From: Herbiconiux solani NBRC 106740
GTDB lineage: Bacteria > Actinomycetota > Actinomycetes > Actinomycetales > Microbacteriaceae
Assembly (NCBI RefSeq): GCF_001571005.1
Contig: NZ_BCST01000005.1
Coordinates: forward strand, 248,001 to 312,000
Direction of reading: 5' to 3'
DNA length: 64,000 bases
Under the pieces are notes generated by a model, which had not been told where the DNA came from, ran no database searches, and saw only the letters and a list, made by a program, of their open reading frames with translations. Made by a program: the position numbers and the translations under genes. Positions 1-62,910 of the stretch are shown here, in pieces (the first letter of the stretch is position 1; each line of letters opens with the position of its first letter).

Positions 1-93
1 GGGAAGCGCTGTGATCCCGGCGGTGCCGAGCACGGCCCCCGGAATCAGCAGTGCGGCTACCAGTCGGCGTCGAGGCCGTCTGGAATCTGCCAT
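1..93 (-). CDS. Exported protein, N-terminal fragment only
   Basis: Only the first 31 codons are inside the window. They read as an Arg-rich n-region (ADSRRPRRRL) followed by a hydrophobic core (VAALLIPGAVLG), a Sec-type signal peptide or membrane anchor. The ATG at 93-91 has a good AAGGAG ribosome site about 7 nt upstream. The gene lies downstream of the acyl-CoA dehydrogenase on the same strand but is separated by 165 bp, so it may have its own promoter. Function cannot be judged from the fragment. Confidence 0.6.
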   Translation of the reverse strand, partial: MADSRRPRRRLVAALLIPGAVLGTAGITALP

Positions 94-258
94 GAGCAAT
101 CTCCTTCGTTTGCATTCGGGCGCGTCGTAGCGCTCGCAATCGTGAGTCTTGTCAACAGCGGTCGACATTGCAAATCGACACCTGATTGGGGGTGGGTCGG
201 GTGCGTTTATCGCGTCAAGGGGTCCCGGGAACGGCTCGTCGGGGGCATGATCAGCGAG

Positions 259-1482
259 TCAGCTGAAGGCGGGCTCCCCGGTGAGGGCGCGACCGAGGAT
301 GAGGGTGTGGATCTCGTCGGTGCCCTCGTAGGTGCGGACGGCCTCGAGGTTGGCGGCGTGGCGCATGACCGGGAACTCGCTCGTCACGCCGTCACCACCA
401 AGGATCGAGCGCGCGGCCGAGGCGATGGCGATCGCCTCGCGCACGTTGTTGAGCTTGCCGACGCTGATCTGCGCGGGGTCGAGGGCACCGCGATCCTTCA
501 GCCGCCCGAGGTGCAGGGCGAGCAGGCAGCCCTTCTCGTACTCCAGCAGCATGTCGGCGAGCTTGTCCTGGATGAGCTGGAACCGCCCGATCGGCCCGCC
601 GAACACCGAGCGGGTGCGGGCGCGCTCGAGCGCGGCTCCGAAGCAACTGCGAGCCGCCCCCATCACACCCCAGACGATGCCGTACCGCGCCTCGTTCAGG
701 CACGAGAACGGCCCGCGGAGGCCGATCGCGCCGGGCAGCCGCGACGACTCGGGCACCCGCACCCCGTCGAGCACGATGTCGCACTGGATCGAAGCCCGCA
801 TCGCGAGCTTGCCGTCGATCGGCGTGGCCGTGAAGCCCGCGGTGTCGGTCGGCACGAGGAACCCGCGGACGCCCTCCTCGGTCTGCGCCCAGACCACCGC
901 GACCCCGGCGATGCTGGCCAGACCGATCCACCGCTTGCTGCCGGAGATCACCCAGTCGTCGCCGTCGCGCACCGCCCGGGTGTCCATCGCCGCCGGGTCG
1001 CTGCCGCCGGTGGGCTCGGTGAGGGCGAAGCATCCGACGACCTCGCCGGTCGCCATCCGGGGCAGCCACTGGGTCTTCTGCTCCTCCGAGCCGAACTTCG
1101 CGATCGCGCTCATCGCGAGCGAGCCCTGCACCGAGACGAAGGTGCGCCAGCCGCTGTCGGCCGCCTCGAGTTCGAGACACGCCAGCCCGTAGCTGACCGC
1201 GCTCGCGCCCGCGCATCCGTAGCCCGAGATGTGCATGCCGAGGAACCCGGCCGCCCCGAGCTCGCGGATGAACTCGGTGCGGAAGTGCTTGTTCTCGAAG
1301 TCGTCCTCGATGGTGGGCAGGATGCGCTGCTGCGCGAAACGGCGGGCGCGCAGCTGCCAGTCGCGCTCCTCGGGCGAGAGCAGGGCGTCGAAGTCGAACA
1401 CGGCCTCGAGGGCGTCGGCGCCTACGTAGCGGGCGTCGGATGCGGGGGCGTCGGATGCGGGGGCGGTCGGGTTCTCGGTCAT
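259..1482 (-). CDS. Acyl-CoA dehydrogenase, glutaryl-CoA dehydrogenase-like
   Basis: FAD-dependent acyl-CoA dehydrogenase, 407 aa, normal length for the family. The signature CFALTEPTGGSDP (151-163) and the C-terminal YEGTDEIHTLILGR are present; Glu386 matches the catalytic base of glutaryl-CoA dehydrogenases. GYGCAGASAVSYGL (88-100) and GWRTFVSVQGSL (111-122) closely resemble GcdH, and Arg113 aligns with the Arg that binds the substrate gamma-carboxylate in human GCDH. This suggests a dicarboxylyl-CoA substrate and possible oxidative decarboxylation (glutaryl-CoA to crotonyl-CoA). It is the last gene of the catabolic operon, 52 bp after a class III CoA-transferase, a pairing known from glutarate use. 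A general short-chain acyl-CoA dehydrogenase remains possible. Confidence 0.85.
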   Translation of the reverse strand: MTENPTAPASDAPASDARYVGADALEAVFDFDALLSPEERDWQLRARRFAQQRILPTIEDDFENKHFRTEFIRELGAAGFLGMHISGYGCAGASAVSYGLACLELEAADSGWRTFVSVQGSLAMSAIAKFGSEEQKTQWLPRMATGEVVGCFALTEPTGGSDPAAMDTRAVRDGDDWVISGSKRWIGLASIAGVAVVWAQTEEGVRGFLVPTDTAGFTATPIDGKLAMRASIQCDIVLDGVRVPESSRLPGAIGLRGPFSCLNEARYGIVWGVMGAARSCFGAALERARTRSVFGGPIGRFQLIQDKLADMLLEYEKGCLLALHLGRLKDRGALDPAQISVGKLNNVREAIAIASAARSILGGDGVTSEFPVMRHAANLEAVRTYEGTDEIHTLILGRALTGEPAFS

Positions 1483-1534
1483 CGTGTTCTTCCTGTCGGA
1501 GGTCGGGGTGAAGTGGCGGCGCGCAACAGGGCGC

Positions 1535-2644
1535 TCACAGCGGGCTCGACCCGAGCCCCGGCGGCCCGGAGCGATAGGTGGCCGGCGTCGCGCTCAGGCG
1601 GATGGGGTTGGCCGACTGCGCCGAGCCGTCGACCTCCACCACCGGCGCGAGCCCGAGGCGCTCGGCGAACGCGAAGGCCTGCGCGAGGTCGTTGATGGGT
1701 CCGGCGGGTACGTCGTGCGCCACCATCCGCTCGAACCAGTCGGTGGCGGATGCGGTGGCGAGCCGCGCGGTGATGATCGTGTTCAGCTCGTCCCGGTGGG
1801 CCACCCGGGCGGTGTTCGTGGCGAACCGGGGGTCGCCGGCGGCCGAGGGTTCGCCGATCGCCTCGGCGAAGGCGCGGAACTGCCGATCGGTGCCGACCGC
1901 CACCACGAGCGGTCGATCGGCGGTGGCGAACACCTCGTAGGGGGCGATGCTCGGGTGGGCGTTGCCGATGATCCCCGGCACCACGCCCGCGCCGAGGTAC
2001 CCCGAGGCCTGGTTCACGAGCGCCGAGAGCAGGCTCGACAGCAGGTCGACCTCCACCCGCTGGCCGGCGCCGGTCCGCTCGCGGGCGAACAGGGCGGTGA
2101 GGATGCCGGTGGTCGCGTGCAACCCGGTGATCACGTCGACCACGGCGACGCCGGTCTTCGTCGGCTCGCCCGGGCGCGGACCGGTGATGCTCATCAGCCC
2201 GCCGACCGCCTGCACGAGCAGGTCGAATCCCGGCAGCGCGGCGCCCCCGGCCGACCCGAACCCGGTGATCGAGCAGTAGACCAGCCCGGGATTGCCCTCC
2301 CGAAGCGTCTCGTACCCGAGGCCGAGGCGATCCATGGTGCCGGCGCGGAAGTTCTCGACCACCACGTCGGCGTCCTCGACGAGCGAGCGGATGCGCGCAA
2401 GATCCGCCTCGTCGGTCAGATCGGCGACCACCGAGCGCTTGTTGCGGTTCACCGAGCCGAAGTAGGTGGAGCTGCCCCGCGCATCCACCGGCGGCGCCCA
2501 GGCGCGGGTCTCGTCACCGGTTCCCGGCCGCTCGATCTTCGTCACCGAGGCGCCGAAATCCGCCAGCATCATCGTGGCGTAGGGGCCGGCGAGCACGCGC
2601 GAGAAGTCGACGATCGACACCCCCTCCAGCGCCGCGCCGCTCAT
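1535..2644 (-). CDS. Class III (CaiB/BaiF) CoA-transferase
   Basis: Family III CoA-transferase, 369 aa, moving CoA between acyl-CoA and a free acid through an Asp-linked mixed anhydride. The N-terminus has the hallmark VLAGPYATMMLADFGA (17-32) and the NKRSVVADL motif (68-76). Asp141 in PGFDLLVQA aligns with the catalytic Asp of this fold. The start is the ATG at 2644, overlapping the TGA of the upstream aldehyde dehydrogenase (ATGA), so the two are probably translationally coupled. Position suggests it activates the acid made by one of the two aldehyde dehydrogenases and feeds the downstream acyl-CoA dehydrogenase. The true donor and acceptor are unknown. Confidence 0.88.
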   Translation of the reverse strand: MSGAALEGVSIVDFSRVLAGPYATMMLADFGASVTKIERPGTGDETRAWAPPVDARGSSTYFGSVNRNKRSVVADLTDEADLARIRSLVEDADVVVENFRAGTMDRLGLGYETLREGNPGLVYCSITGFGSAGGAALPGFDLLVQAVGGLMSITGPRPGEPTKTGVAVVDVITGLHATTGILTALFARERTGAGQRVEVDLLSSLLSALVNQASGYLGAGVVPGIIGNAHPSIAPYEVFATADRPLVVAVGTDRQFRAFAEAIGEPSAAGDPRFATNTARVAHRDELNTIITARLATASATDWFERMVAHDVPAGPINDLAQAFAFAERLGLAPVVEVDGSAQSANPIRLSATPATYRSGPPGLGSSPL

Positions 2645-4095
2645 GAACCGCCCCGGAGGTAAACGGTGGTGCTGCGGGTGTAGAAGTCGCGGGCGGCCGC
2701 GCCCTGCTCCTGCGGGCCGAGTCCGCTGCCCTTGGCTCCTCCGAAGGGCACGTGCGGGTCGGCGCCCGCGGTCTCGGAGTTGACGTGCAGCATCCCCACC
2801 TCGATCCGCTCGATCGCGGAGAGCGCGGTGACCAGGCTGTCGGTGAACACGGCGCCCGAGAGCCCGAACTCGCCCTCGTTCGCCAGCCGGAAGGCCTCCT
2901 CGACGCTGCCTGCCCGGCGCACCGCGAGCACGGGGCCGAAGAGCTCCTCGTTCCAGAGCGACGTGTCGACGCCCGTGCAGTCGATCACCTCCGGTCGCAC
3001 GAAGTGGCCGCGCTGCAGCCCGGCATCCAGCTCGAGGGCGCCCGAGGTGAGACGGGTGGCGCCGCCGGCCACGGCCTCGGCCACGCCGGCGTCGATCCGG
3101 GTGCGGGCGGCGGCGGAGACGACGGGCCCGAGGTCGATGCCCGGTGCGAGCGGGTCGCCGACGGCGAGCCCGTTGGCCCGGGCCGCGATCCGCGCCAGGA
3201 ACTCGTCGGCGATCTCGTCCGCGACGATCAGCCGCGAGGTCGCCGTGCACTTCTGGCCGCTCGAGGCGAACGCCCCGGCACCGACCTGTGCGACGGCGAG
3301 TTCGAGGTCGGCGTCGGCGAGCACGATCGCGGCGTTCTTGCCGCCGAGCTCGGCCTGCACCGGGATGCCGCGGGCCGCGCCCGCCGCCGCGATCGACCGC
3401 CCGACCGGTGTAGAGCCCGTGAAGCTGATGGCGTCGATCCCGGAGTGCGCCACGAGGGCCCGGCCGAGGGCGGAGTCGCCGATCACGAGGTTGAGGACAC
3501 CGGCCGGGAGGCCGGCGTCTTCGAGGGCCTCGGCCAGGCGCATGGCGAGCAGGGGTACCGGGTCGGCCGGCTTCCACACCACCGCGTTGCCGTAGACCAG
3601 CGCGGGCGCGATCTTCCAGGCCGGGATGGCGATGGGGAAGTTGAACGGCGTGATCAGGCCGACCGTGCCGAGCGGATGCCGGGTGACCAGGATGCGCTCC
3701 CCCGGTCGCGGCGACTCGAACAGCGAGCCCGCCTCGCGGTCGCCGGCGCGCCCGGCGTAGTCGAGGATCTGCGCGGCCCGGCGCACCTCGCCGATCCCCT
3801 CGGCCAGGGTCTTGCCCTCTTCGCGGGCGAGTTCGGCGCCGCGCTTCTCCGCCGCATCCCGGAGCAGCGAACCCGCCCGCTGCAGGATCGCGCCGCGTTC
3901 GTGCATCGGCGTCGCGGCCCAGGCCGGCTGGGCCCCGCGGGCCGCGGTGACGGCCCGGTCGAGGTCTGCGGCGGTGGCCCCGTCCCCCGCTGCCACGAGC
4001 ACGTCCGGGTGCGCGGGGTCCGCGCTCTGCACGAGGCCTCCCCCGCCGGGGGCCCATCGACCCGCGATGTACTGCTCGAGCTCGATGGTCGTCAT
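2641..4095 (-). CDS. NAD(P)-dependent aldehyde dehydrogenase
   Basis: Aldehyde dehydrogenase superfamily, 484 aa, full length. Catalytic residues are visible: Asn152 (PFNFP), general base Glu249 (AELGGKN) and nucleophile Cys283 in SSGQKCTATSR. The GQKCTATSR form and GSTPVGR NAD-loop are typical of the alpha-ketoglutarate-semialdehyde / succinate-semialdehyde-like branch, so a semialdehyde carrying a second carboxylate is plausible. It ends in an ATGA overlap with the CoA-transferase and starts 76 bp after a second, unrelated aldehyde dehydrogenase of the same operon. Substrate is unassigned. Confidence 0.88.
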   Translation of the reverse strand: MTTIELEQYIAGRWAPGGGGLVQSADPAHPDVLVAAGDGATAADLDRAVTAARGAQPAWAATPMHERGAILQRAGSLLRDAAEKRGAELAREEGKTLAEGIGEVRRAAQILDYAGRAGDREAGSLFESPRPGERILVTRHPLGTVGLITPFNFPIAIPAWKIAPALVYGNAVVWKPADPVPLLAMRLAEALEDAGLPAGVLNLVIGDSALGRALVAHSGIDAISFTGSTPVGRSIAAAGAARGIPVQAELGGKNAAIVLADADLELAVAQVGAGAFASSGQKCTATSRLIVADEIADEFLARIAARANGLAVGDPLAPGIDLGPVVSAAARTRIDAGVAEAVAGGATRLTSGALELDAGLQRGHFVRPEVIDCTGVDTSLWNEELFGPVLAVRRAGSVEEAFRLANEGEFGLSGAVFTDSLVTALSAIERIEVGMLHVNSETAGADPHVPFGGAKGSGLGPQEQGAAARDFYTRSTTVYLRGGS

Positions 4096-4171
4096 CGTCC
4101 ACTCCCTTGGTTCTGAATCGTAGCCGCGCCCTCAGGTGGCGGCTCAGTAGGGCCGGCCCTGTAGCGGCGGC

Positions 4172-5623
4172 TCAGTAACGCCGGCGCAAGCGGATGTGCC
4201 GTTGCTGCATGAACCCGCGCAGGCCCTCCGGCCCGAGTTCGCGCCCGAAGCCCGACATCTTCCAGCCGCCGAACGGCGCCTGCAGCTCGGTGATGTCGTT
4301 CACGTTCACGCCGACGCCGCCCGCCTCGATCCGCTCGGCCACGGCCCAGGCCCGGTCGAGGTCACCGCCGAAGACGTAGGCCGCGAGTCCGGCCTGCGAG
4401 TCGTTCGCGATCGCCGCGATCTCGTCGACCCCGGCGTCCGCGCGATAGCGGTGCACGGCGACGACCGGGCCGAAGGTCTCCTCCGTCATCGACGCGGCGC
4501 CGAGCGGCACGCCGTCGAGCACGGTGGGCTCGAAGAACGTGCCCGCGTCGTAGTCACCGCCGGTCAGCCGGCCGCCTCCCGAGGCCACCCGGGCCCCGCG
4601 CGACACCGCGTCGGCGATGTGCCGCTCGGCGGTCTCGATCACCGCGCGGGTCGTGGTCGGGCCTCCGGTCACGCCGGTCTCCACGCCGTGCCCGATCCGG
4701 ATCGCCGCTGCCTCGGCCGCGACGGCCTCGACGAACTCCGTCGCCACCGAGTCGGCGACCAGGATGCGGTTGACCGCGATGCAGATCTGTCCCGCGTTCG
4801 AGAACGAGCGCCGGGCCGCTGCCGACGCCGCCTCGGCGATGTCGGCATCCGGAAGCACCACGAAGGGGCTCTGGCCGCCGAGCTCGAGCGAGACGCGCTT
4901 CATCGTGCCGGCGGCCGAGCGCATGATGGCCTGGCCGGTGCGGGTCGAGGCGGTCGCCGTGATCATGCCGATGCCCGGATGCTCCGACAATCGCTCCCCC
5001 GCCTCGATGCCGCCCGGGAGGTCGGCGAGCACGCCCGCCGGAACCCCGGCGTCGTGCAGGCACTGCACGACGAGCGCCACGGCGAGCGGCGACTCCAGGG
5101 GCGGTTTGACGATGATCGCGTTCCCGGCGGCGAGCGCCGGGGCGACCTTCCAGGCGTAGAGGTCGACCGGGTAGTTCCACGGCACCACCGCGCCCACGAC
5201 CCCGATCGGCAGCCACTCCACGAGCGAGCGGATGTCGGCACGCTGCACGGCCCGGATGCTGCCGGTGACCCGCATCCCCTCTTCGGCGTAGTAGTGGAAC
5301 ACCTCGGCGGCGAAGGCGGTCTCCTTGACGCTGTCGGGAACGGGCTTGCCCTGTTCGCGCGTGAGCAGGAGGGCGATGTCGTCGATGCGTTCGGTGATCA
5401 GGTCGGCGGCGCGGTGCAGGATGCGGGCGCGGTCGGCCGAGGGCAGGGCCGCCCAGGCCGGCTGCGCGGCGCGCGCCGCTGCCACCGCGTCGTCGACGTC
5501 GGCGGCGAGGGCGAGGGCCGAGCGGCCCACCGGCTCGCCGGTGGCGGGGTCGCGCACGTCGATCGTGCCGGCCTCCTGCGCTCGGCGCCAGGTGCCGCCG
5601 AGGTACAGCTCGCGGTCGCTCAT
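4172..5623 (-). CDS. Aldehyde dehydrogenase, second paralogue
   Basis: Aldehyde dehydrogenase, 483 aa, with Asn150 (PWNYP), Glu247 (LELGGQ) and Cys281 (NAGQICIAV). The start ATG at 5623 overlaps the SIS gene stop (ATGA). One oddity: the cofactor loop normally reading FTGSTxxG here reads ATASTRTG (223-230), replacing the conserved glycine, so cofactor handling may differ from standard enzymes. It is clearly diverged from the downstream aldehyde dehydrogenase and unlikely to be a recent duplicate, so two successive oxidations or two substrates are suggested. A 12-bp copy of its 3' end lies 28 bp downstream (4138-4149). Confidence 0.87.
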   Translation of the reverse strand: MSDRELYLGGTWRRAQEAGTIDVRDPATGEPVGRSALALAADVDDAVAAARAAQPAWAALPSADRARILHRAADLITERIDDIALLLTREQGKPVPDSVKETAFAAEVFHYYAEEGMRVTGSIRAVQRADIRSLVEWLPIGVVGAVVPWNYPVDLYAWKVAPALAAGNAIIVKPPLESPLAVALVVQCLHDAGVPAGVLADLPGGIEAGERLSEHPGIGMITATASTRTGQAIMRSAAGTMKRVSLELGGQSPFVVLPDADIAEAASAAARRSFSNAGQICIAVNRILVADSVATEFVEAVAAEAAAIRIGHGVETGVTGGPTTTRAVIETAERHIADAVSRGARVASGGGRLTGGDYDAGTFFEPTVLDGVPLGAASMTEETFGPVVAVHRYRADAGVDEIAAIANDSQAGLAAYVFGGDLDRAWAVAERIEAGGVGVNVNDITELQAPFGGWKMSGFGRELGPEGLRGFMQQRHIRLRRRY

Positions 5624-6408
5624 TTCACCACCGGTGCCGAGAACTCGCGCGAACGCAACCGGCGCCAGAGCTCGGCGTAGTTGCGATCGTTCTGCTGGTG
5701 CGCTTCGGTCGTGCGGTTGGAGTTGGTGTTCACCATGATCATCGGCTTCACTCCGCGTGCCACGAGGTCGGCCGAGGTCGAGGCGTTGATCGCGTGCGAG
5801 ACCGCCACGGCGACCGAGGTCGAGGTGGGGCCGACCGGGTACTCGAGTCCGTCGATGAACTGCGAGGCATCCTCGAGCGGGATGCCCGTGTCGATCGTGA
5901 CGTCGGCGATCTCGAACAGGCGCTTGCCGCTGGAGTGCCGGCTCGCCACCTGCGAGGAATGCGGCACGCTCGTGACGCCGATCACCTTGAGGCCCCGCTC
6001 CTGGAACTCCACGGCCATGTCGAGGATGACGGGGTTGATGCCCGAGTGGCTGAACAGGATGAGCGCGTCGCCGTCCTTCAGCTGGTGCGAGCGCAGGATC
6101 GCCTTGCCGTAGCCCTCCTGGGTGTGCAGGAAGCGGTACTGCGCGGTTCCCTGGTCGCCCAGCACGTGGTGCATGAGGGCGATCGACGACTCGACGATCG
6201 GCCGGAAACCGGTGACCCCGCCGGTGCGGGGGAACGACTCGAGCGCGGCGAAACCGCCGTGGCCGGTGCCGAAGGTGAAGACGAGGCCGTCGCCGGCGAT
6301 CGTGTCGGCGCAGATGGCGCCGGCCGCGGCGATGTTCTCGGCCTGGGTGTCGCGCACCCAGGCCATCTTGGCGATCACGTCGTCGAGATAGGTCTGTGCG
6401 ATGGTCAT
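5620..6408 (-). CDS. SIS-domain phosphosugar-binding protein (COG4821/UPF0309-like)
   Basis: SIS-fold protein, 262 aa, resembling uncharacterised phosphosugar-binding proteins. FTFGTGHGGF near residue 45 and LFSHSGINPVILDMA near 118-132 are the typical nucleotide-fold/phosphosugar-binding loops. No membrane segment. It probably isomerises or binds a sugar phosphate released from the imported compound, for example ribose-1-phosphate from the nearby phosphorylase; that is inference from context. It begins 83 bp after the phosphorylase and overlaps the following aldehyde dehydrogenase start. Confidence 0.75.
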   Translation of the reverse strand: MTIAQTYLDDVIAKMAWVRDTQAENIAAAGAICADTIAGDGLVFTFGTGHGGFAALESFPRTGGVTGFRPIVESSIALMHHVLGDQGTAQYRFLHTQEGYGKAILRSHQLKDGDALILFSHSGINPVILDMAVEFQERGLKVIGVTSVPHSSQVASRHSSGKRLFEIADVTIDTGIPLEDASQFIDGLEYPVGPTSTSVAVAVSHAINASTSADLVARGVKPMIMVNTNSNRTTEAHQQNDRNYAELWRRLRSREFSAPVVK

Positions 6409-6491
6409 GGTGACTCCTTGCGTGGGCTTCGGATGTGTCGGGGTGGGTGCCGGTGGCAGTGCTGATGCCGGGGTCGGGCTGGATGCCGGGG

Positions 6492-7262
6492 TCAGGCCGG
6501 CGTGGCAGCGGGCTCGTCGGCGCGGGCGGAGGCGGCGAGCGCGGCGAAGCCGGCCCGCAGCAGGGCGCCCTCGGCGGCCACGCGCTCCTCGTGCGGCATC
6601 TTCTCGTTCGTGACGCCCGAGACGCTGGCGAGGCAGAGCGAGCCCGCGGCGACGCCGAGCGCCCGGGCGGCCACGAGCAGCGCGCTGGTCTCCATGTCGG
6701 CGGCCACCACTCCGGCCGCGGCGAGCGCCGCATACCGGTCCGCCACCGGTTCGGTGCCGTGACCGGTCTCGAACATCTCGGTGTAGAAACCGTCGAAGGT
6801 GGCGTAGATGCCCGAGCGCGTCGGCCGGCCCGAGTCGGCCGCTGCCTGTTCGAGGTGCCGGGTGAGAGCGAAGTCGGGCACCGCGGGGAAGGCCAGGGGA
6901 AGGTAGCTGGCCGAGGTCGACTCGCCGCGCACGGCGCCGTGCGCCACCACGAGCTCGCCGAGGGTGGTCTCGCCCACGGTCATCACGGTGCCCAGGCGCA
7001 CGAAGCGCTTCACGCCGAGGCCGGCGAGCTCGTGCAGGACGACGGTTGCGATCGGGGCGCCCATGCCGAAGGCGCTCACGGTGATGCGCTCGCCCTGGTG
7101 GTAGCCGGTCGCGGTGGTGAGACCGCGGTCCTCGTTCAGGATGACGGCGTCATCCAGCAGCTCGGCAGCCAGCAGCACGCGGCCCCGGTCGCCCACCAGC
7201 ACGGCCGACCGGCCGACGTCCTCCGGCCCGCAGCGCAGGTACCAGGCGTTGTTGCTCGACAT
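6492..7262 (-). CDS. Nucleoside phosphorylase (uridine-phosphorylase-like)
   Basis: PNP/UDP phosphorylase family member, 256 aa. The N-terminal phosphate-site motif VGDRGRVLLAAELLDD, the GMGAP loop (near 67) and the later ADMETSALL motif (base/ribose-binding Met-Glu) are characteristic. It would split a nucleoside with phosphate into base and (deoxy)ribose-1-phosphate in the cytosol. The ATG at 7262 has AAGGAG 7 nt upstream and overlaps the PfkB stop by one base (TGATG). Gene context (BMP-type nucleoside importer, PfkB kinase, SIS protein) agrees with nucleoside catabolism. Base specificity cannot be read from the sequence. Confidence 0.82.
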   Translation of the reverse strand: MSSNNAWYLRCGPEDVGRSAVLVGDRGRVLLAAELLDDAVILNEDRGLTTATGYHQGERITVSAFGMGAPIATVVLHELAGLGVKRFVRLGTVMTVGETTLGELVVAHGAVRGESTSASYLPLAFPAVPDFALTRHLEQAAADSGRPTRSGIYATFDGFYTEMFETGHGTEPVADRYAALAAAGVVAADMETSALLVAARALGVAAGSLCLASVSGVTNEKMPHEERVAAEGALLRAGFAALAASARADEPAATPA

Positions 7263-8281
7263 CAGTGTTTCTCCTTCAGGTGCGCCGGCCCTTCGGCCGG
7301 TTGAGAGGCGTCGGCCGGACGGCCGGGTGCTGTGGGGGCGGTTGCTGTGGGGTCGGCCACCGGTGGGCCGGTCGCTGTGCGGCGGCGGAGCAGTTCGCCC
7401 GCCGCGGTGGAGGCACCGGCGACCAGCCGGCCGACCTCCTCGTCGTCCAGGGACGCGAGTGCGGAATGCGGGCCGACGGCATCCGACAAGAACCCCACCA
7501 GGGCTCCCACGAACGTGTCCCCCGCCCCGGTCGTGTCCTCGGCCTCGACGGGTTCGACCGCGATGGAGCCGGGCCGGGCGGCGCCGTCGGGGCTCGCGAA
7601 CGACCAGGCCACGCCATCCGCCCCCCGCGTCTCGACGACGAGCGCTCCGGGGCGCACGAGTGATTCGGGTGGGCGGCGATCGAGGGTGACGTAGGGGCGC
7701 TCCCCGCGGCTGAAGCTCACGACGTCGGCGCGGGCCAGGATGCGGGCCACCATCTCGGGCGTGTACGCGTCGTCGTCGTGCTTGACGGCCCAGACCAGTC
7801 GTGCCGAGTCGGGCAGGGCGTCGAGGATCTGCTCGGTGATCCGCCTCGGGGCGACGGTCAGCAGCAGCCAGTCGCCCTCGGTGACGATCTCGCGCTGCTC
7901 GTCTGTCAGCGCATCCGGATGGCAGTCGCCCGGGTCGAAGAGGCAGATGGTGCCGCCGGAGCCGATCTCGATCATCGTCGCCGCCGGGCTGCGGGTGCCC
8001 GAGCGCGCCACTCCCCTGATGCCGGCGCAGCGTGCGACCGACTCGGCCCAGCGACGACCGGGCAGGTCGTCGGCGACCCAGCTGATCGCCTCCACGGCCG
8101 CCGGTGTCCCGGCGATCGCGCTCACGATGTGCGCGATGCCGCCGACCCCGGGCTCGGCCGAGACCAGGGCGCGCTCGAGGATGCTCGTGGCGTCGACCCC
8201 CCGGAACTCCGACACCGAGGTGCTCGAGTCCAGACTCGCGTACCCGACCACGGTGACCCGCACGGGCGCCGTCCCGGTCAC
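7262..8281 (-). CDS. PfkB-family carbohydrate/nucleoside kinase
   Basis: Ribokinase-fold kinase, 339 aa from the GTG at 8281, which overlaps the hydrolase stop (GTGA). The C-terminal PfkB signature DTTGAGDTFVGALVGFL contains the catalytic Asp and anion hole; an N-terminal VVGYASLD strand and GGIAHIVSAIA fit the substrate-binding half. It probably phosphorylates a sugar or nucleoside generated by its neighbours. The C-terminal tail of about 40 residues is Pro/Ala/Thr-rich and looks disordered. An open frame continues upstream of the GTG but has no PfkB-like content, so the coupled GTG is preferred. Confidence 0.82.
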   Translation of the reverse strand: MTGTAPVRVTVVGYASLDSSTSVSEFRGVDATSILERALVSAEPGVGGIAHIVSAIAGTPAAVEAISWVADDLPGRRWAESVARCAGIRGVARSGTRSPAATMIEIGSGGTICLFDPGDCHPDALTDEQREIVTEGDWLLLTVAPRRITEQILDALPDSARLVWAVKHDDDAYTPEMVARILARADVVSFSRGERPYVTLDRRPPESLVRPGALVVETRGADGVAWSFASPDGAARPGSIAVEPVEAEDTTGAGDTFVGALVGFLSDAVGPHSALASLDDEEVGRLVAGASTAAGELLRRRTATGPPVADPTATAPTAPGRPADASQPAEGPAHLKEKH

Positions 8282-8883
8282 AGGGTCGCCCGCGCTTCCT
8301 CGAAGCTCGGCACACGGCCGATGTAGCGCTCGATGTCCTCCAGGCTCGCCTCGGCGAGGTGCGGGCGGTTGGAGTTGGTGGTCTCGCGGGGCACCCACAC
8401 CTCGAAGCCGCCCGCGAAGGCATCCTGGGCCGACGCACGGATGCAGACGTTGGTCTTCACGCCCACCAGCACCACCCGGCGGATGCCCTGCTCGCGCAGG
8501 AGCAGGTCGAGGTCGGTGGCGTAGAAGGCCGAGAACCGGCGCTTGGGCACCTCGACCTCGCGGCCCGAGGCGATCGGCTCGAAGCCCGGCGCGTACGCGG
8601 CGTCGTCGGCGCCGATCTCGTGGTGCCGCGGGAGCTTCCGGAACTCGAAGTCCTCCAGGCCCGGGTAGTGCCGCTCCACCGCGTGCACCACCAGGGTGCC
8701 GTGGGCGCGGGCGGTCTCCAGCAGCTCCCGGATCGGGCCGAGCACCTCGGGGGCCGCCGGGTAGTAGTTGGGCTGGCCCTCCTCGAAGAAGGAGGCGATC
8801 ACGTCGACCAGCACGAGGGCGGTGGGCACGTCGTCGCCGTGCTCGGCGGGAACCAGGAGGCCGGGGGTCTCGTCGGCGGTCAT
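8278..8883 (-). CDS. Isochorismatase-like cysteine hydrolase
   Basis: Cysteine hydrolase, 201 aa, with the Asp-Lys-Cys triad visible: Asp27 (LVLVDVIASF), Lys114 (VPKRRFSAF) and Cys147 (KTNVCIRASAQDA). These enzymes cleave amides, ureido groups or isochorismate. The metal-binding DxH motif of nicotinamidase is absent, so a nicotinamidase role is not supported; an amide or carbamoyl compound is more likely. The ATG at 8883 is preferred because AGAGG lies at proper spacing; a second ATG six codons upstream (8901) is possible. It lies between the importer permease and the PfkB kinase in one operon. Confidence 0.82.
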   Translation of the reverse strand: MTADETPGLLVPAEHGDDVPTALVLVDVIASFFEEGQPNYYPAAPEVLGPIRELLETARAHGTLVVHAVERHYPGLEDFEFRKLPRHHEIGADDAAYAPGFEPIASGREVEVPKRRFSAFYATDLDLLLREQGIRRVVLVGVKTNVCIRASAQDAFAGGFEVWVPRETTNSNRPHLAEASLEDIERYIGRVPSFEEARATL

Positions 8884-8902
8884 GTCAGAACCTCTCGTCA
8901 TG

Positions 8903-9805
8903 TCAGCTCAGCTTCCGGGCCGAGCGGGAGTACTCGCGGATGCCGGTCAGCGCCAGCACCACCACGACGGCGATGTAGGGCAGGGTCGAGATGATGTCGG
9001 CCGAGAAGCCGCCCACCGTCTGCAGCCGGATCTGCAGGGCGTCGAAGAAGCCGAACAGCACGCAGGCGAGCGCCGTGGGCAGCGGGCGGGAGCGGCCGAA
9101 GTAGAAGGCCGCCAGGGCCACGTAGCCGCGCCCCGCCGTCATGTTCTCGTTGAACAGGCCGACGGTGCCGAGGCTGAGGGCCACACCTCCCAGGGCGGCG
9201 AGCGCGCCGGCGATGATGCCGGCACCGTCACGGATGTCCAGCGTGCGGAGCCCGAGCGAGCTGCTCGCGGTCTCCGACGCACCGGTGGCGCGCAGCCGCA
9301 CGCCCCAGCGCGAGTTCTTCAAGAGCCACGCCAGCACGGGCACGAGCACGATGCAGAGCCAGAACAGCGGGTCCTTCCCGGAGATCAGGGCGCCCAGCAC
9401 CGGCACGTCCGCCACCCCGGGGATGTCGAGCCTCGGCAGCCGCTCGAGCCCCTCGATCTGCAGCGTGCCCGAGACGCCGAAGCCGGCGCGCAGCACGTAG
9501 CCGATCACGCCGAACACCACGATGTTGAAGCCGAGCCCCACGATGATCTCGTTGCCCTTGAGCCGCGTGATCAGGAGGCTCATCAACCCGCCCGTGACGG
9601 CGCCGGCGAACAGCCCGGCGAGGGCGCCCAGGGCCCAGTTGCCCGTGGCGCCGCTCACGACGGCGCCGAACAGCGCGCCGGTAAGCATGTGCGCCTCGAG
9701 GCCGATGTTCACCACGCCGGCCCGGCGGTGGATGGCGCCGCCGAGCGCGGCCAGCACCAGCGGCACCGAGAGGGTGAGGGCGGAGGCGATGATCGCGTCG
9801 ATCAC
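8903..9805 (-). CDS. ABC transporter permease, BMP-type nucleoside importer (second)
   Basis: Polytopic BPD_transp_2 permease, 300 aa, with about eight to nine hydrophobic segments and the typical HRRAGVVNIGLEAHML entrance near residues 27-42. The family forms the smaller permease of NupNOPQ/RnsABCD-like nucleoside importers. The GTG at 9805 has GGAGAGGAG upstream and overlaps the stop of the first permease (GTGA). It should pair with the preceding 375-aa permease and the double ATPase. Confidence 0.9.
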   Translation of the reverse strand: MIDAIIASALTLSVPLVLAALGGAIHRRAGVVNIGLEAHMLTGALFGAVVSGATGNWALGALAGLFAGAVTGGLMSLLITRLKGNEIIVGLGFNIVVFGVIGYVLRAGFGVSGTLQIEGLERLPRLDIPGVADVPVLGALISGKDPLFWLCIVLVPVLAWLLKNSRWGVRLRATGASETASSSLGLRTLDIRDGAGIIAGALAALGGVALSLGTVGLFNENMTAGRGYVALAAFYFGRSRPLPTALACVLFGFFDALQIRLQTVGGFSADIISTLPYIAVVVVLALTGIREYSRSARKLS

Positions 9806-10929
9806 GGGCGTCTCCTCTCCGAGCGCGCGGCCCAGCGTTTCGAGAGTCGGGGGAAGGCGAAGACCGCGACGGCGAAGATCATCACGGTGCCCTCGAGGAT
9901 GTCGATCAGCTGCACGGGCAGGTTGATGAACAGCTGCACGGTGGCGCCGGCGGCGTTGAGCGCTCCGAAGAGGATGGCGCCGACCAGGATGCCGATGGGG
10001 TTGAACCGCGCCAGCAGGGCGATGGCGATGCCGGTGAAGCCGAAGCTGGCGGAGAAGCCCTCGGAGTAGCGGTGCACGATGCCGAGCGCGTGCGATCCGC
10101 CGCCGAGCCCGCCGATCAGGCCGGCTCCGAGGAGCGCCGTCAGCAGCACGGTGCGCACCCGGAGACCCTGAGCCGTCGAGAAGCGCGGCGCGCTGCCCAC
10201 GGCCCGGAATTCGAAGCCCAGGGTGGAGCGGCGCATCCACACCGCGTAGCCGATCAGCAGCAGCAGGCCGATGATGAGCGCCCAGCTGGTCTGGCCGGGG
10301 GGCGCCAGGGCGGGCAACTCGGCGTTCTCGGCCACGTAGGCCGTGGCGGAGTTGGCCTGGCCGCGCTCCTGGAAGAAGGATTGCACGGCCCAGCCGGCCA
10401 GGCCCGCCACGATGAAGTTGAACATCAGCGTGGTGACGACCTCGTCGACCGACCAGACGGCACGCAGCACCGCGGGCACGGCGGCCACCAGTCCGCCGGC
10501 GAGGGTGGCGCCGAGCAGCGGCAGGATGACCGCGACGACGGGCGGGAAGCCGCCCATGTTCGCGCCGATGACCGCGGCGGTGAGGCCGCCGAGCACGAAG
10601 CTGCCCTCGACGCCCACCGTGAACACCCCCGCGCGGTACGCGAAGGCGGCGGCGATGGCCGTGAAGAGGATAGGGGTGGTCGCGGCCAGGGTGGCGTTGA
10701 TGCGGCTCGGGGTGCCGAAGGCCTCGGTGGCGAGGCGGCCGTACACGGCGATCGGGTCGTTGCCGGTGGCCAGCAGCACGACGGCGCCGACCAGCAGCGC
10801 GATCACCACGGGGAGGCCGGCGTGCCGGGCCACCCGTCCGGTCGCGATCAGGATGCGCTGCAGCGGCGGGTCGCCGGCCGGCGTGGGATCGGGCTCGACG
10901 GGCGCCGACTGGGTCGGGGCGGAGGTCAT
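9802..10929 (-). CDS. ABC transporter permease, BMP-type nucleoside importer (first)
   Basis: Permease of the BPD_transp_2 family, 375 aa, with an N-terminal cytoplasmic tail of about 40 residues then multiple membrane segments. AYRAGVFTVGVEGSFVLGGL is the family hallmark and parallels the RRAGVVNIGLEAHML stretch of its partner. It overlaps both flanking genes by 4 nt, consistent with stoichiometric coupled translation. Together the two permeases should form the heteromeric channel of a nucleoside-type importer. Confidence 0.9.
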   Translation of the reverse strand: MTSAPTQSAPVEPDPTPAGDPPLQRILIATGRVARHAGLPVVIALLVGAVVLLATGNDPIAVYGRLATEAFGTPSRINATLAATTPILFTAIAAAFAYRAGVFTVGVEGSFVLGGLTAAVIGANMGGFPPVVAVILPLLGATLAGGLVAAVPAVLRAVWSVDEVVTTLMFNFIVAGLAGWAVQSFFQERGQANSATAYVAENAELPALAPPGQTSWALIIGLLLLIGYAVWMRRSTLGFEFRAVGSAPRFSTAQGLRVRTVLLTALLGAGLIGGLGGGSHALGIVHRYSEGFSASFGFTGIAIALLARFNPIGILVGAILFGALNAAGATVQLFINLPVQLIDILEGTVMIFAVAVFAFPRLSKRWAARSERRRP

Positions 10930-12560
10930 ACGGTCTCGCCTCCTCGGGGGGATCGGGGGTGTCCCGGTGTGGGGTCGTCCGGGACGTCGGCATCCGGGTT
11001 GTCGTCCTCCGGGCTGTGGTTGCCGAGCATGAGTGCGCCGATCTCGGAGCGGCTCGCCTCGCCCGGCAGCATCCCGGCCACCTGGCCGCGATGCAGCACC
11101 ACGATGCGGTCGGAGAGCTCACGCAACTCGTCGAGCTCCTCGCTGAAGAGCACGATCGCGGCCCCCTCGTCGCGCGCGCGGCGCAGTAGCTCGTGGATGT
11201 AGCCGATGCCGCGCACATCCACGCCGCGGGTGGGCTGGCTCGCCACGAGCACGCGCGGGTTGCCGATGGTCTCGCGGCCGAGCACCACGCGCTGCTGGTT
11301 GCCGCCGGAGAGGGAGGATGCCGGGTCCGACGACGATCCGTAGCGCACGGCCGCCCGGTCGAGCACCTCCTTCACCCGCTCGGCCACGCGTCGCGGGCCG
11401 AGCCAGCCGCCGCGCGCGAGGCCGTGCAGCGCCGGGGTCGCGATCGAGTTGTCGGCGAGTGAGAGGCCGAGGGCGAGGCCCTCGTGCTTGCGGTCGGCGC
11501 TCACGTAGCCGAGGCCCGCGAGCCGTCGCTTGCGGATGCTCGCCCGGCCGATCGAGGCGCCGTCGAGCCGGATGTCTCCCGAGGCCGCCCCGCGGATGCC
11601 GATGAGCACCTCGGCCAGTTCCTCCTGGCCGTTGCCGGCCACCGCCGCCACACCGAGGATCTCGCCGGAGCGCACCTCGAAGCTCACGTCGTCCAGCCGC
11701 AGCACGGCCCGGTCGTCCTTGGCGCTCACGCCCTCGACCACCAGCACCGTCTCACCCGGGTCGCCGCGCGACACCGAGCGCTCGGCGACCTCGGAGTCGC
11801 CCACGATCAGGGCGGCGAGCCCCTCGCGGTCGATCTCGCCGCGGGCGATCTCGGTGATCGTCCGGCCCGAGCGCAGCACGGTGATGTGGTCGGCCACGCC
11901 CACCACCTCGTCGAGCTTGTGGCTGATGAAGATGACGGTGCGGCCGGCGTCGCGCAACGACGACAGCAGGCGCAGGAGCTCCTCGGCCTGAGCCGGGGCC
12001 AGCACGGCCGTCGGCTCGTCGAGGATCAGCACGTCGGCACCGCGGTAGACCAGGCGCAGGATCTCGACCTGCTGCTGGATCGCGATCGAGGTCAGTGCCG
12101 CTCCGGCTTTCCAGTCGATGTCGACGCCCACCGAGGCGCTCAGCTCCTCCGCGCGCCGCAGGGCCGTGGCCCAGTCGATCCGGCCGAAGCGCACGGGCTC
12201 CTCGCCCAGCACCAGGTTCTCCAGCAGCGAGAGCTCCGGGATGATCGCGAGCTCCTGCTGCACCAGCCCGATCCGGCGGGCGATCGCAGCCCGGGGGCTG
12301 GTCAGCGCGATCTCCTCGTCGTCGATCACCACGTGACCGGAGTCGGGCTGGTCGAGGCCGTAGAGGATGCGCATGAGCGTGCTCTTGCCCGCTCCGTTCT
12401 CGCCCACGACGGCGTGCACCGTGCCGGGTCGCACGCTCAGCGTCACGTCGACGTTGGCCCGGACGGGACCGAAGGATCGGCTCACGCCCCGGGCGCCGAT
12501 CCGGCAGCGGATGGCTGCCGGACCGGAACCGGGAACGCTCGCGGTGCTCGTGCTGCTCAC
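10926..12560 (-). CDS. ABC importer ATPase with two nucleotide-binding domains
   Basis: Double-domain ATPase, 544 aa, of the RbsA/NupO kind. Domain 1 has a normal Walker A (GENGAGKST), Walker B (VLILDEPTAVL) and a switch His (ISHKLDEV). Domain 2 has the degenerate P-loop AVAGNGQEEL usual for this family and a clear LSGGNQQRVVLGRE signature. It powers the two following permeases. The GTG start at 12560 overlaps the lipoprotein stop by one base (TAGTG). Confidence 0.92.
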   Translation of the reverse strand: MSSTSTASVPGSGPAAIRCRIGARGVSRSFGPVRANVDVTLSVRPGTVHAVVGENGAGKSTLMRILYGLDQPDSGHVVIDDEEIALTSPRAAIARRIGLVQQELAIIPELSLLENLVLGEEPVRFGRIDWATALRRAEELSASVGVDIDWKAGAALTSIAIQQQVEILRLVYRGADVLILDEPTAVLAPAQAEELLRLLSSLRDAGRTVIFISHKLDEVVGVADHITVLRSGRTITEIARGEIDREGLAALIVGDSEVAERSVSRGDPGETVLVVEGVSAKDDRAVLRLDDVSFEVRSGEILGVAAVAGNGQEELAEVLIGIRGAASGDIRLDGASIGRASIRKRRLAGLGYVSADRKHEGLALGLSLADNSIATPALHGLARGGWLGPRRVAERVKEVLDRAAVRYGSSSDPASSLSGGNQQRVVLGRETIGNPRVLVASQPTRGVDVRGIGYIHELLRRARDEGAAIVLFSEELDELRELSDRIVVLHRGQVAGMLPGEASRSEIGALMLGNHSPEDDNPDADVPDDPTPGHPRSPRGGETV

Positions 12561-13636
12561 TAGTTGCCGCTGTAGTAGTCGGGGTAGCCCTGCTCGACGA
12601 CGTTCCAGACCTTGATGTCGCCGTCGATGATCTTCTGCTTCAGGGCGTCGACCTTGTCGATCGTGGCCTGGCCGATGGCATCCTTCGTGTACTGGAAGTC
12701 GCTGAGGCCGACGCCGTCCTCGGCGAGGCCGAGGTTGATCGTGGTGCCGCCGGGGAAGCTCCCGTCGGCGTACGACTTCAGCACGGTCTCCACGGCGACG
12801 TCGGTCTTCTTGAGCATGCTGGTGAGCACGGAGCCGGGGGCGACCCCGTCCTGGTTCGCGTCGACGCCGATGGCGTAGTGGCCCGCATCCTTCGCGGCCT
12901 GGATGACACCGGCGCCCGTACCGCCCGCTACCGCGTAGACGATGTCGGCGCCCTGCTCGAACATCGACTGCGCGAGCTGCTGGCCCTTGGTGGGGTCGGC
13001 GAAGTCGTTCGAGTAGGCGGTCAGCACCTTCACCGAGGGATCGGTGTCGCGGGCGCCCTGGATGAAGCCGACGAGGAACTTGTCGATGCCGGTCGACTGC
13101 GTGCCGCCGATGACGCCGATCACCTTGTCGGCGTTGATCTTCGGGTCGCTGGTGTTGACCGTCTGCAGGGCGGCGAGCGCGCCGGCGAGGTAGGAGCCCT
13201 CCTGCTCCTGGAAGAGCACCGAGGCAACGTTGTCGCCCGCGGCTTCGGCGTTCACGAGCACCCAGTCGGTGTTCGGGTAGTCGGCGGCCACGGTGGGCAG
13301 CACCTCTGCGTGCGAGTACTCGAGGTCGACGACGACGCCGAGACCTTCGTCACCGGCGCGGCGCAGGATCTGCTCGCCCTGGCCCACCACGTCGTCGGAC
13401 TCGATCGGCGTGCCCTCGAGCCCGTTGTCGGTCAGTCCCTGCTGGAAGCCCTTGTAGGCGAGGTCGTTGTACGACTCGTCGCCGAGACCGCCCTGGGCCA
13501 CCACGAGTGCGGCCGAGCCGAGCGCCGCGTCGCCGCCGGCGCTGCCTGACGGGGAGTCGCTACTCGTTCCCGAGCAGGCGCTGAGCAGCAGCAAGGCCGC
13601 CGCCGGTACGAGTGCCAGTGCGTGGCGTTTCTTCAT
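12560..13636 (-). CDS. BMP-family substrate-binding lipoprotein
   Basis: Basic membrane protein (PnrA/BmpA/NupN) family, 358 aa. The signal peptide ends in a lipobox LLSAC with lipidated Cys21, followed by a Ser/Gly-rich linker, so the protein sits on the outer face of the membrane. Core motifs include DLEYSHAEVLPTVAADYPN and GVDANQDGVAPGS near 273. Family members bind purine or pyrimidine nucleosides. The ATG at 13636 has GGAGG upstream; unusually the first 77 nt overlap the end of the preceding regulator gene in another frame. Confidence 0.9.
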   Translation of the reverse strand: MKKRHALALVPAAALLLLSACSGTSSDSPSGSAGGDAALGSAALVVAQGGLGDESYNDLAYKGFQQGLTDNGLEGTPIESDDVVGQGEQILRRAGDEGLGVVVDLEYSHAEVLPTVAADYPNTDWVLVNAEAAGDNVASVLFQEQEGSYLAGALAALQTVNTSDPKINADKVIGVIGGTQSTGIDKFLVGFIQGARDTDPSVKVLTAYSNDFADPTKGQQLAQSMFEQGADIVYAVAGGTGAGVIQAAKDAGHYAIGVDANQDGVAPGSVLTSMLKKTDVAVETVLKSYADGSFPGGTTINLGLAEDGVGLSDFQYTKDAIGQATIDKVDALKQKIIDGDIKVWNVVEQGYPDYYSGN

Positions 13637-14423
13637 GATGTCCTCCGGGTGATGTGGGTGCGAACGTGATGTGGTACAGGTATTGCGTCCCTAGGTACCG
13701 GGCTCGGACGACCTCGACGAGGCGGCCTGTGGTGTCACGCGAAGCGCGGACGATCTCGATGAGGGCGATGCCCTCCTCCACCCCGAGCAGGTCGGCGTCG
13801 ACGGCATCCGCGTTGATGGCACGCAGCGACTCCTCGCCCGAGTCCAGGTGCACGCCGTTCTCGCGAAGGGCGCCGTAGAAGGAGAAGTCGGGCCGTGCCG
13901 CGGCGGGCTCGGTGAGGCCGATCCGCTCGGCGACGTCGGCGGGCACGAAGGTGCGGTGGATGCCGACCGGGGCGTCGCCCACGGTGCGGAGCCGCTCCAC
14001 CCGCACGAGCGGCTGCAGCGCGCCCTCGGCACCGACCGGCTCGTCGTCGAAGGCGGAGGCCGGCCGCTCGGGCGAGTCGGCGCCGATCAGGTCGAAGGAG
14101 AGCAGCGTGCTCCCGGGAGCGAGCCCGAGGCCGTGGACGTGCTCGGAGAAGCTGGTGAGCTCGGGCAGCTGACGCTGCATCGGCCGGGCGTTCACGAAGG
14201 TGCCCTTGCCCTGGCGTCGGGTGACGACGCCGCGCTCGACGAGGGTGTCGAAGGCCTTGATCACCGTGGCGCGGCTGAGGTGGTTCTCGCTGGCGAGCAC
14301 CGTCTCGCTCGGCAGGATGTCGCCGGGCTTCAGCCGCTCGAGGGCGATGAAGTCCTGCACCGCGTTGGCCAGCTGCACGTACAACGGCTGCTCGCCCCGC
14401 CCGTGCTCCAGGTCTACTCGCAT
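13560..14423 (-). CDS. GntR/HutC-family transcriptional regulator
   Basis: N-terminal winged helix (ILPSETVLASENHLSRATVIKAFDTL) and C-terminal UTRA effector domain ending near ARYLGTQYLYHITFAP, 287 aa from the ATG at 14423, which has AGAGGA upstream; a GTG at 14441 would add six residues. It is the first gene of the operon and probably its local repressor, answering to a ligand derived from the imported compound. The last 26 codons run past the UTRA fold and overlap the lipoprotein gene by 77 nt without a stop. CTTGTCCGGTCAAG just upstream is a candidate operator. Confidence 0.87.
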   Translation of the reverse strand: MRVDLEHGRGEQPLYVQLANAVQDFIALERLKPGDILPSETVLASENHLSRATVIKAFDTLVERGVVTRRQGKGTFVNARPMQRQLPELTSFSEHVHGLGLAPGSTLLSFDLIGADSPERPASAFDDEPVGAEGALQPLVRVERLRTVGDAPVGIHRTFVPADVAERIGLTEPAAARPDFSFYGALRENGVHLDSGEESLRAINADAVDADLLGVEEGIALIEIVRASRDTTGRLVEVVRARYLGTQYLYHITFAPTSPGGHHEETPRTGTRTGGGLAAAQRLLGNE

Positions 14424-14449
14424 GCTGCACGTCCTCTGCACCTGGTCAT
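14414..14449 (-). other. Possible 11-codon leader ORF overlapping the gntR start
   Basis: An ATG at 14449 preceded by a strong AAGGAG (6 nt spacing) opens an 11-codon frame (MTRCRGRAACE) ending in TAG ten bases beyond the regulator ATG. Its ribosome site is better than that of the regulator. It may be a translational leader or coincidence; no homologue can be judged at this size. Confidence 0.25.
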
Positions 14450-14474
14450 GGGGGCTCCTTCAACCGCTCAACCG

Positions 14475-14488
14475 CTTGTCCGGTCAAG
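14475..14488. promoter_or_regulatory. Candidate GntR operator
   Basis: CTTGTCCGGTCAAG is palindromic except for the two A/T positions flanking CCGG (12 of 14 positions symmetric). It lies 52 bp upstream of the regulator ATG, where an autoregulating HutC-type repressor would bind. It partly overlaps a perfect tandem CAACCGCT pair (14461-14476). Confidence 0.4.
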
Positions 14489-14525
14489 TGAACAGTAAAC
14501 GACCCCGCGGCGTCAATGGGTCACG

Positions 14526-14562
14526 GAAACCTGCATTTAACGGCCCGTAACACGCTGGTTAC
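14526..14562. promoter_or_regulatory. GlnR-like box array (tentative)
   Basis: Pentamers GAAAC, TTAAC, GTAAC and GTTAC follow each other with gaps of 6, 5 and 6 nt; the last two form GTAAC-N6-GTTAC. Actinobacterial GlnR sites are built of GTnAC/GAAAC units spaced by 6 nt. The array sits between the divergent gntR operon and the GNAT gene, so its target is uncertain. Nitrogen control of nucleoside uptake would make sense, but this is pattern matching only. Confidence 0.25.
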
Positions 14563-14699
14563 ATGCGCGGCTCCTCCAGCCGACCCGTCGTGCGCTCGCG
14601 CTCATCGTCATCCGCTCGATGAGCGACCTCGGCCTTTGAGCCGATCCCGACCCCAGCCGTCGCAGCCCGACATCGCTACGGTGGGGGCGTCGGGGTGCG

Positions 14700-15274: not shown

Positions 15275-15276
15275 TG

Positions 15277-15366: not shown

Positions 15367-15373
15367 GGGGACG

Positions 15374-15403: not shown

Positions 15404-15451
15404 TCGAGGCCGAGCGGATGCGTCGGGTGCGGTACTCGATAGCATCTCGGC

Positions 15452-62901: not shown

Positions 62902-62910
62902 CAAGGCGTG

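Follow-up and report, generated by a model that had tools for sequence, protein, structure and literature searches.

A ten-gene cassette of two phyla for the probable import and breakdown of a nucleoside-like molecule, and a CoA module joined to it in Herbiconiux solani

What kind of compound is served by a run of genes in which a nucleoside-type importer, a nucleoside phosphorylase (NP), and a pair of glutarate-type coenzyme A (CoA) enzymes follow one another? The question is raised by 64,000 nucleotides of Herbiconiux solani NBRC 106740 (contig NZ_BCST01000005.1, positions 248,001 to 312,000; this whole stretch is called the window below), where thirteen minus-strand genes are open and tightly packed at 259-14423. 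Standard nucleoside salvage is well known, and routes for unusual ribosides are, to our knowledge, poorly assigned. Ten of the thirteen genes form a set that recurs in two phyla and probably imports and dismantles a nucleoside-like molecule. Since the set is fixed and has a DNA element of its own, it is directly testable whether the binding protein, the regulator, and the five enzymes fit one compound. If true, a function would follow for subfamilies of SIS proteins and phosphorylases that now fall below the cut-offs of specific models or fit a general model only, and the CoA module, repeatedly added to the set, would be a clue to the end product.

The operon

An original prediction, made from the letters of the sequence without database searches, had described the thirteen packed genes and named their families; all of them are open where they had been placed, and Pfam agrees with the family in 13 of 13 cases. 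In the direction of transcription they are:

13560-14423, minus strand: GntR-UTRA regulator (Pfam GntR 53.5 bits, UTRA 71.5 bits)
12560-13636, minus strand: BMP/PnrA-like substrate-binding lipoprotein (Pfam Bmp 200 bits; best solved relative TmpC 2fqw)
10926-12560, minus strand: ABC importer ATPase (Pfam ABC_tran in two stretches; a homologous gene in the same place in relatives)
9802-10929, minus strand: ABC importer permease 1 (Pfam BPD_transp_2)
8903-9805, minus strand: ABC importer permease 2 (Pfam BPD_transp_2)
8278-8901, minus strand: isochorismatase-like cysteine amidase, isoc (Pfam Isochorismatase 112 bits)
7262-8281, minus strand: PfkB-family kinase, pfkB (Pfam PfkB 32.9 bits, a low similarity)
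6492-7262, minus strand: nucleoside phosphorylase NP of the uridine phosphorylase/purine nucleoside phosphorylase (PNP) superfamily (Pfam PNP_UDP_1 102.7 bits)
5620-6408, minus strand: SIS-domain phosphosugar enzyme, UPF0309/NagS-like (NCBIfam PRK02947 258 bits, cut-off 135)
4172-5623, minus strand: aldehyde dehydrogenase aldB, which closes the conserved cassette and is found in 27 of 27 loci (Pfam Aldedh 497 bits)
2641-4095, minus strand: aldehyde dehydrogenase aldA, in the added CoA module (Pfam Aldedh 492 bits)
1535-2644, minus strand: class III CoA-transferase, coaT (Pfam CoA_transf_3 393 bits)
259-1482, minus strand: GcdH-like acyl-CoA dehydrogenase, gcdh, of the KRWIGL clade (best solved relatives GcdH 3sf6 and 3swo)

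The GntR and BMP genes overlap by 77 nt at the front; gaps of 83 nt (the largest), 76 nt, and 52 nt follow NP, aldB, and coaT, respectively, and the remaining junctions overlap or abut. The thirteen genes are a real operon, chance packing being excluded because an identical gene order is found in 26 further loci. A consensus scan of 1-14450 gave no terminator-like site (mean of the shuffles 2.3) and two promoter-like matches (at ~9.2 and ~9.9 kb), which are no proof of transcription; none lay at the gaps near 6450 and 4130, where the original prediction had allowed for a split between transcripts. The same kind of scan gave no sigma-70-like promoter in 14400-14720.

A ten-gene cassette in two phyla

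The cassette consists of the GntR gene, the four-gene BMP importer, and the genes for the isochorismatase-like amidase, PfkB, NP, the SIS protein, and aldB. The order isoc-pfkB-NP-SIS-aldB is identical in 27 of 27 loci from Actinomycetota and Alphaproteobacteria, a number that includes the window, counts doubly represented contigs once, and contains two strains of Mesorhizobium soli. All ten genes, including GntR and the BMP importer, are present in 25 of these loci; the two exceptions are L095, which starts within the ATPase gene, and L101, which has a different importer. The loci were drawn from a search of the family, from a pattern-based scan of a collection of 84,980 species (one genome per species), and from plasmids; the scan was built on the NP alignment, detects only relatives sharing one of two peptides, and gave 21 named loci, and the plasmids added two more. 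Residue counts over 29 rows refer to the 27 loci plus two contigs that are present twice. A fully supported branch divides 14 actinomycete loci (e.g., Naasia, Leifsonia, Leucobacter, Ruicaihuangia, Thermocrispum, and further members of the family) from 13 loci of Alphaproteobacteria or unclassified Proteobacteria (including Mesorhizobium, Kaistia, Pseudaminobacter, Rhizobium, Agrobacterium vitis, Methylocapsa, and Pseudooceanicola), with a long-branch warning between Thermocrispum and the Alphaproteobacteria. On plasmid pRvVAR031a of Agrobacterium vitis (L106; 649 kb), the whole cassette lies near the repABC genes.

The cassette looks widespread but rare, because a search with NP at E<=1e-30 in 396 genomes across the phylum returned the window's own NP alone. 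Among 199 genomes of the family, five strong relatives were found besides the window (70-82% identity), and all other matches were at 39% identity or below. None of the 15 loci examined around these more distant NP homologues has an amidase, PfkB, or SIS gene, and one of them (L053) has a BMP-type importer. Homologues of the SIS protein in other genomes (31-41% identity) have a GntR gene nearby in 13 of 14 loci and an amidase, NP, or PfkB gene in 0 of 14. Beside the cassette itself, no extra neighbour common to most of the 28 loci compared (one contig counted twice) was found; an ABC-ATPase cluster recurs in nine, and a permease cluster in three, two of which are the same contig. The set is apparently unnamed so far: in agreement with the original prediction, which knew of no pathway with this combination, no description of it was found in the open-access literature, as judged from listings.

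Residues and folds of the core enzymes

The alignments show which signatures of the named families have been kept and which have been lost. NP retains G24, D25, R28, R46, R89, T92, and D189-M-E191 in 29 of 29 rows, and with them the phosphate-binding Gly/Arg/Arg/Thr set and the ribose-site M-E of uridine phosphorylase; these roles, and those of the uracil-reading Gln/Arg and the C-terminal Arg, are the ones that we take the residues to have. An identity as uridine phosphorylase was rejected, since neither the uracil-reading pair that follows F-Y (Gln and Arg) nor the C-terminal Arg is conserved: position 163, directly after F-Y and Gln in uridine phosphorylase, is Met in 24 rows and Leu in five, position 165, the next specificity position, varies widely (Gly 10, Glu 7, Ala 5, Asp 4, Arg 3), and position 216 is Gly in 17 rows and Ala in 12. 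An identity as DeoD purine nucleoside phosphorylase was rejected as well, the purine-protonating Asp being replaced by Gly (17) or Ala (12) at position 216 in all 29 rows, a position matched by eye to what is presumably the catalytic Asp motif of PNP.

In the amidase, D33/K120/C153 and E76/H78/H93 are invariant (29/29 rows). Compared with the archaeal nicotinamidase 1ilw/1im5, the D/K/C triad is the same, and E76/H78/H93 stand for D52/H54/H71 at the metal site (Glu for Asp), where we assume the functions of triad and metal site to be those of nicotinamidase. Its predicted fold (mean pLDDT, the predicted local distance difference test score, 82.9) matches 3hb7, 3eef, NicF, RutB, and nicotinamidase. 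PfkB has an invariant D-x-TGAGD motif (20/20 rows) and a predicted fold (mean pLDDT 88.1) nearest to the sulfofructose kinase YihV and the ribokinases, and shows the lowest conservation among the five enzymes (32-41% identity between the window and the Alphaproteobacteria compared). The two predicted structures confirm the fold families and do not narrow the substrates.

The best score of aldB in NCBIfam is for succinate-semialdehyde dehydrogenase (407 bits, cut-off 646), an identity that was rejected since both arginines that presumably bind the carboxylate are gone (R to W and R to S relative to E. coli GabD 3jz4). Among solved structures, NagS SCO4393 (9eol) is the one closest to the SIS protein, whose sole NCBIfam match is the UPF0309-type model PRK02947. 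According to PMC12680351, NagS is the N-acetylglucosamine-6-phosphate dehydratase of Streptomyces, with H53, R64, E94, and D179 essential, with orthologues reported in Streptomycetaceae only, and with no NagS activity in homologues at around 30% identity. The cassette proteins keep H53, R64, D179, N228, S119, and S121 but differ from NagS in 29 of 29 rows at E94, which is replaced by an invariant histidine (His95) in a column shortly after a four-residue gap, and at S54, which is Gly. An identity of the SIS protein as NagS was rejected on these aligned residues, the essential E94 among them.

The importer

With a Bmp lipoprotein, an ATPase, and two BPD_transp_2 permeases, the usual importer has the composition of BMP-type nucleoside importers such as PnrA and BmpD. 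One relative carries a sugar-type ABC importer in place of the BMP importer. In this relative (L040/L101), the ATPase scores highest as AraG, followed by YtfR, XylG, AlsA, and RbsA; the permease as AraH, followed by the D-allose, GguB, and ribose permeases; and the binding protein as RbsB, followed by rhizopine-binding protein, with all scores under the curated cut-offs. Since two unlike importers serve the same five enzymes, the ligand would have a sugar part, and the two importers taken together with the phosphorylase point to a riboside; the swap thus fits a ribose-bearing ligand. Four more BMP-type binding-protein genes are present elsewhere in the source genome (contigs C1, C6, and C8; L002-L005).

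The CoA module

Glutarate oxidation can proceed through a class III CoA-transferase and glutaryl-CoA dehydrogenase, and the same two families stand side by side in the CoA module. The best NCBIfam model for coaT is succinate--glutarate CoA-transferase NF052585, with a score (343 bits) below its cut-off of 750, and membership in the class III family is clear. The GcdH-like protein retains the DSG-x-R arginine and the TYEGT glutamate, which the original prediction had pointed out and which we take to be the carboxylate-binding (substrate-binding) and the catalytic residue of glutaryl-CoA dehydrogenase. Unlike in known glutarate systems, the module is joined to a probable riboside cassette, and the cassette-linked gcdh of Microbacteriaceae falls into a clade with KRWIGL in place of the standard KMWITN (ITN to IGL). 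The enzyme of Thermocrispum municipale (L091) has KMWITN and belongs to a separate clade. In Thermocrispum agreste (L092, 13063-14105), coaT is split over two frames and there is no gcdh, which gives the impression of a module in decay.

The original prediction treated importer and CoA module as linked and would have fallen had homologous loci never combined them, but they do occur together: coaT lies downstream of aldB, directly or after aldA, in 10 of the 27 cassette loci, nine of them with gcdh. What stands is that importer, phosphorylase, and amidase are inherited together and that the module is tied to them by at least twofold recruitment; what does not stand is a single indivisible pathway, since 17 of the 27 loci lack an adjacent module (among them L094, whose contig ends just past aldB) and the coaT/gcdh pair stands alone in many Microbacteriaceae. 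Nor is a second aldehyde dehydrogenase a fixed member: an orthologue of aldA (67-70% identity), whose best NCBIfam model is alpha-ketoglutaric semialdehyde dehydrogenase (444 bits, cut-off 770), is found in only five of the nine other CoA-bearing loci, and in Leifsonia (L087) a different aldehyde dehydrogenase (35%) follows gcdh, as in the standalone modules of several genomes.

That the module was recruited to the cassette on at least two separate occasions is supported by the trees, since a single origin is rejected for both genes (approximately unbiased (AU) test p 8e-103 for one clade of the nine cassette gcdh rows and 2e-4 for one clade of the cassette coaT rows); a third, separate joining in Leifsonia is possible. 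The trees were built with a quick method, carry long-branch warnings for one reference row and L199, and leave out L092 (split coaT, no gcdh) and L039 (a second copy of L086). At E<=1e-140, gcdh finds a match in 68 of the 199 family genomes, and this subset contains all six that carry the cassette (hypergeometric p 0.0014, with kinship ignored). The operon gcdh is the sole match in the source genome at E<=1e-80; in three congeneric genomes, no gcdh match reaches that threshold and no NP exceeds 33% identity.

A candidate operator

A short palindrome lies close upstream of the GntR gene:

14476-14487: palindrome TTGWCYRGWCAA (minus-strand reading CTTGACCGGACAAG), the candidate operator

The strict form TTGWCYRGWCAA is found at this place in 24 of the 26 cassette rows that have a GntR gene, the other two being one contig present twice with one mismatch, and the loose form TTG-N(5-8)-CAA in 26 of 26. 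The extended form CTTG-N(5-7)-CAAG occurs in eight of 26 rows (seven at the palindrome site) against 0.27 expected, and the strict form has one match in the window against 0.01 expected. In all 12 cassette genomes scanned a copy stands at the cassette, and in 10 it is the sole copy, as assigned by hand comparison of positions. The palindrome is probably the operator of the cassette. In Ruicaihuangia (G152), a strict copy directly before isoc suggests a second promoter there; no strict copy was found at the unlinked coaT-gcdh pair in that genome or in Leucobacter (G595). Kaistia terrae (G590, contig C12, 38903-55246) has five copies of TTGTCCGGACAA within ~16 kb, at a distance from the cassette; they may mark the regulon of a related regulator.

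Proposed function and alternatives

The best explanation of the locus, and one that we hold to be rather probable, is uptake of a riboside, its phosphorolysis, separate handling of sugar and aglycone, formation of an acid, and an optional exit by way of CoA. A GntR-UTRA repressor would control the operon through the palindrome near the promoter, and the importer would take up a ribose-bearing, nucleoside-like compound, most likely a ribosyl compound with a base other than the ordinary purines and pyrimidines. NP would release the sugar as sugar 1-phosphate, to be processed by PfkB and the SIS protein by analogy with archaeal operons of uridine-phosphorylase-type enzymes, PfkB ribose-1-phosphate kinases, and isomerases. 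On the aglycone side, the cysteine amidase may take off an amide or carbamoyl nitrogen, leaving an aldehyde that aldB may oxidise to an acid. In loci with the module, the class III CoA-transferase would activate a glutarate-type acid, which the GcdH-like flavoenzyme would oxidise, probably with decarboxylation. The data themselves show co-inheritance of the genes, a conserved DNA element, the aligned residues that have been kept or lost, and the history of the module's recruitment; the substrate class, the order of the steps and the dicarboxylate of the original prediction, the fate of the sugar, the identity of the acid, and the action of the repressor are inferred. A more far-reaching proposal is that a new pathway consumes the nucleoside whole, the sugar by way of phosphorolysis, PfkB, and a new SIS activity, and a non-purine, non-pyrimidine amide base by conversion to a glutarate-type acyl-CoA; we regard this as possible but on the doubtful side.

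The closest published logic for the sugar part appears to be the non-carboxylating pentose bisphosphate pathway of halophilic archaea, whose operons, in the portions of PMC9700705 available, pair a gene annotated as uridine phosphorylase with a PfkB ribose-1-phosphate kinase. The pathway described there also uses ribose-1,5-bisphosphate isomerase, ribulose-1,5-bisphosphate phosphatase, aldolase, and glycolaldehyde reductase, and an amidase is not part of it in those portions. The two systems have the phosphorylase and PfkB families in common, and sugar 1-phosphate would be a shared intermediate; unlike in the halophiles, none of the other four enzymes of that account was recognised among the 13 genes. 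Membership in the halophile-type pathway was therefore rejected, because isomerase, phosphatase, and aldolase were not recognised, and the analogy was kept.

Several observations weigh against the riboside explanation. The 13 genes include no recognisable aldolase, sugar phosphatase, or ring-opening enzyme, which leaves the routes of both base and sugar incomplete on paper, and a simple step from semialdehyde to dicarboxylate is weakened because aldB lacks both arginines. The link between cassette and module could be opportunistic, because the CoA pair often occurs apart from the cassette in Microbacteriaceae: the KRWIGL clade of gcdh occurs there in many contexts (L113-L138, L139-L158, L184-L199). 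On a third origin in Leifsonia the two genes disagree: when Thermocrispum is set aside, a grouping picked after the tree was seen, coaT rejects one clade (AU p 0.001) and gcdh does not reject it (p 0.53). The loose palindrome is expected in 4.0 of 26 shuffled rows, and a reversed control of the strict form also occurs 0-3 times per genome, so that the weight of the palindrome lies in its position and conservation and not in rarity.

Other explanations are conceivable. The module might be an independent glutarate unit (e.g., for lysine or 5-aminovalerate) that merely shares the promoter, an idea that is compatible with riboside breakdown by the cassette, so that its likelihood is not to be added to the others. 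The cassettes without an adjacent module favour it, as do the position of coaT within 1.5 kb of gcdh in 22 of 25 cassette-free loci and the presence nearby of an aminotransferase gene in L140 and a succinate-semialdehyde-dehydrogenase-like gene in L139; however, the module joined the same cassette at least twice, always downstream of aldB, with or without aldA in between, and a GcdH-like gene is present somewhere in all six cassette genomes of the family set. Such independence has, in our estimate, clearly less than an even chance.

The other two alternatives concern the ligand. Fructosamine (Frl/Fra) operons bring a GntR regulator, a PfkB kinase, and a SIS protein together, and the cassette might accordingly import an amino- or amido-sugar conjugate that PfkB phosphorylates and from which the SIS protein removes the aglycone in the manner of FrlB or FraB, NP being secondary. 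The likeness of the SIS protein to NagS, an enzyme whose substrate is a 6-phospho amino sugar, and the sugar-type importer of one locus agree with this, yet the SIS protein matches PRK02947 and no deglycase model in NCBIfam, the usual importer is of BMP type, and NP keeps the phosphate-site residues checked and D-M-E, with their presumed roles, in every row. The cassette also differs from Frl/Fra operons in having a nucleoside phosphorylase, an amidase, an aldehyde dehydrogenase, and a different SIS subfamily, and we consider a conjugate of this kind unlikely. Still less probable as the ligand is nicotinamide riboside, whether as such or oxidised, reduced, or hydrated, from which NP would free the pyridine carboxamide for deamidation by a nicotinamidase-like amidase. 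The amidase does align with archaeal nicotinamidase at the presumed triad and metal site, and NP lacks the purine-protonating acid of PNP, which a cationic base presumably does not need; the same acid-x-H...H pattern, however, is found in 3hb7 and 3eef, relatives without an assigned function, aldB and the CoA module would have no obvious task on nicotinate, and no enzyme opening a pyridine ring was recognised among the operon genes.

Flanking DNA

Beyond gcdh, the next minus-strand gene encodes a GH31 glycoside-hydrolase-like protein with CBM6/35 domains and a signal-peptide-like start (L202, 6630-10169, reaching window positions 1-168). It was excluded from the unit because none of the nine CoA-bearing relatives has a homologue. 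To the right of the operon lie a divergent gene for a GNAT acetyltransferase and a tRNA-Ser gene (15277-15366). Nucleotide matches to two congeneric genomes (L221 and L222) begin (at 15276 and 15219) where the tRNA-Ser gene starts or a little ahead of it and extend to the right as far as 21.7 kb (15219-21707), and 14000-15218 has no nucleotide match in either genome; the operon and the acetyltransferase gene may thus belong to a variable region with a tRNA gene at its border. Near the far end of the window, genes for tRNA-Glu, tRNA-Asp, and tRNA-Phe follow one another at 62700-63034.

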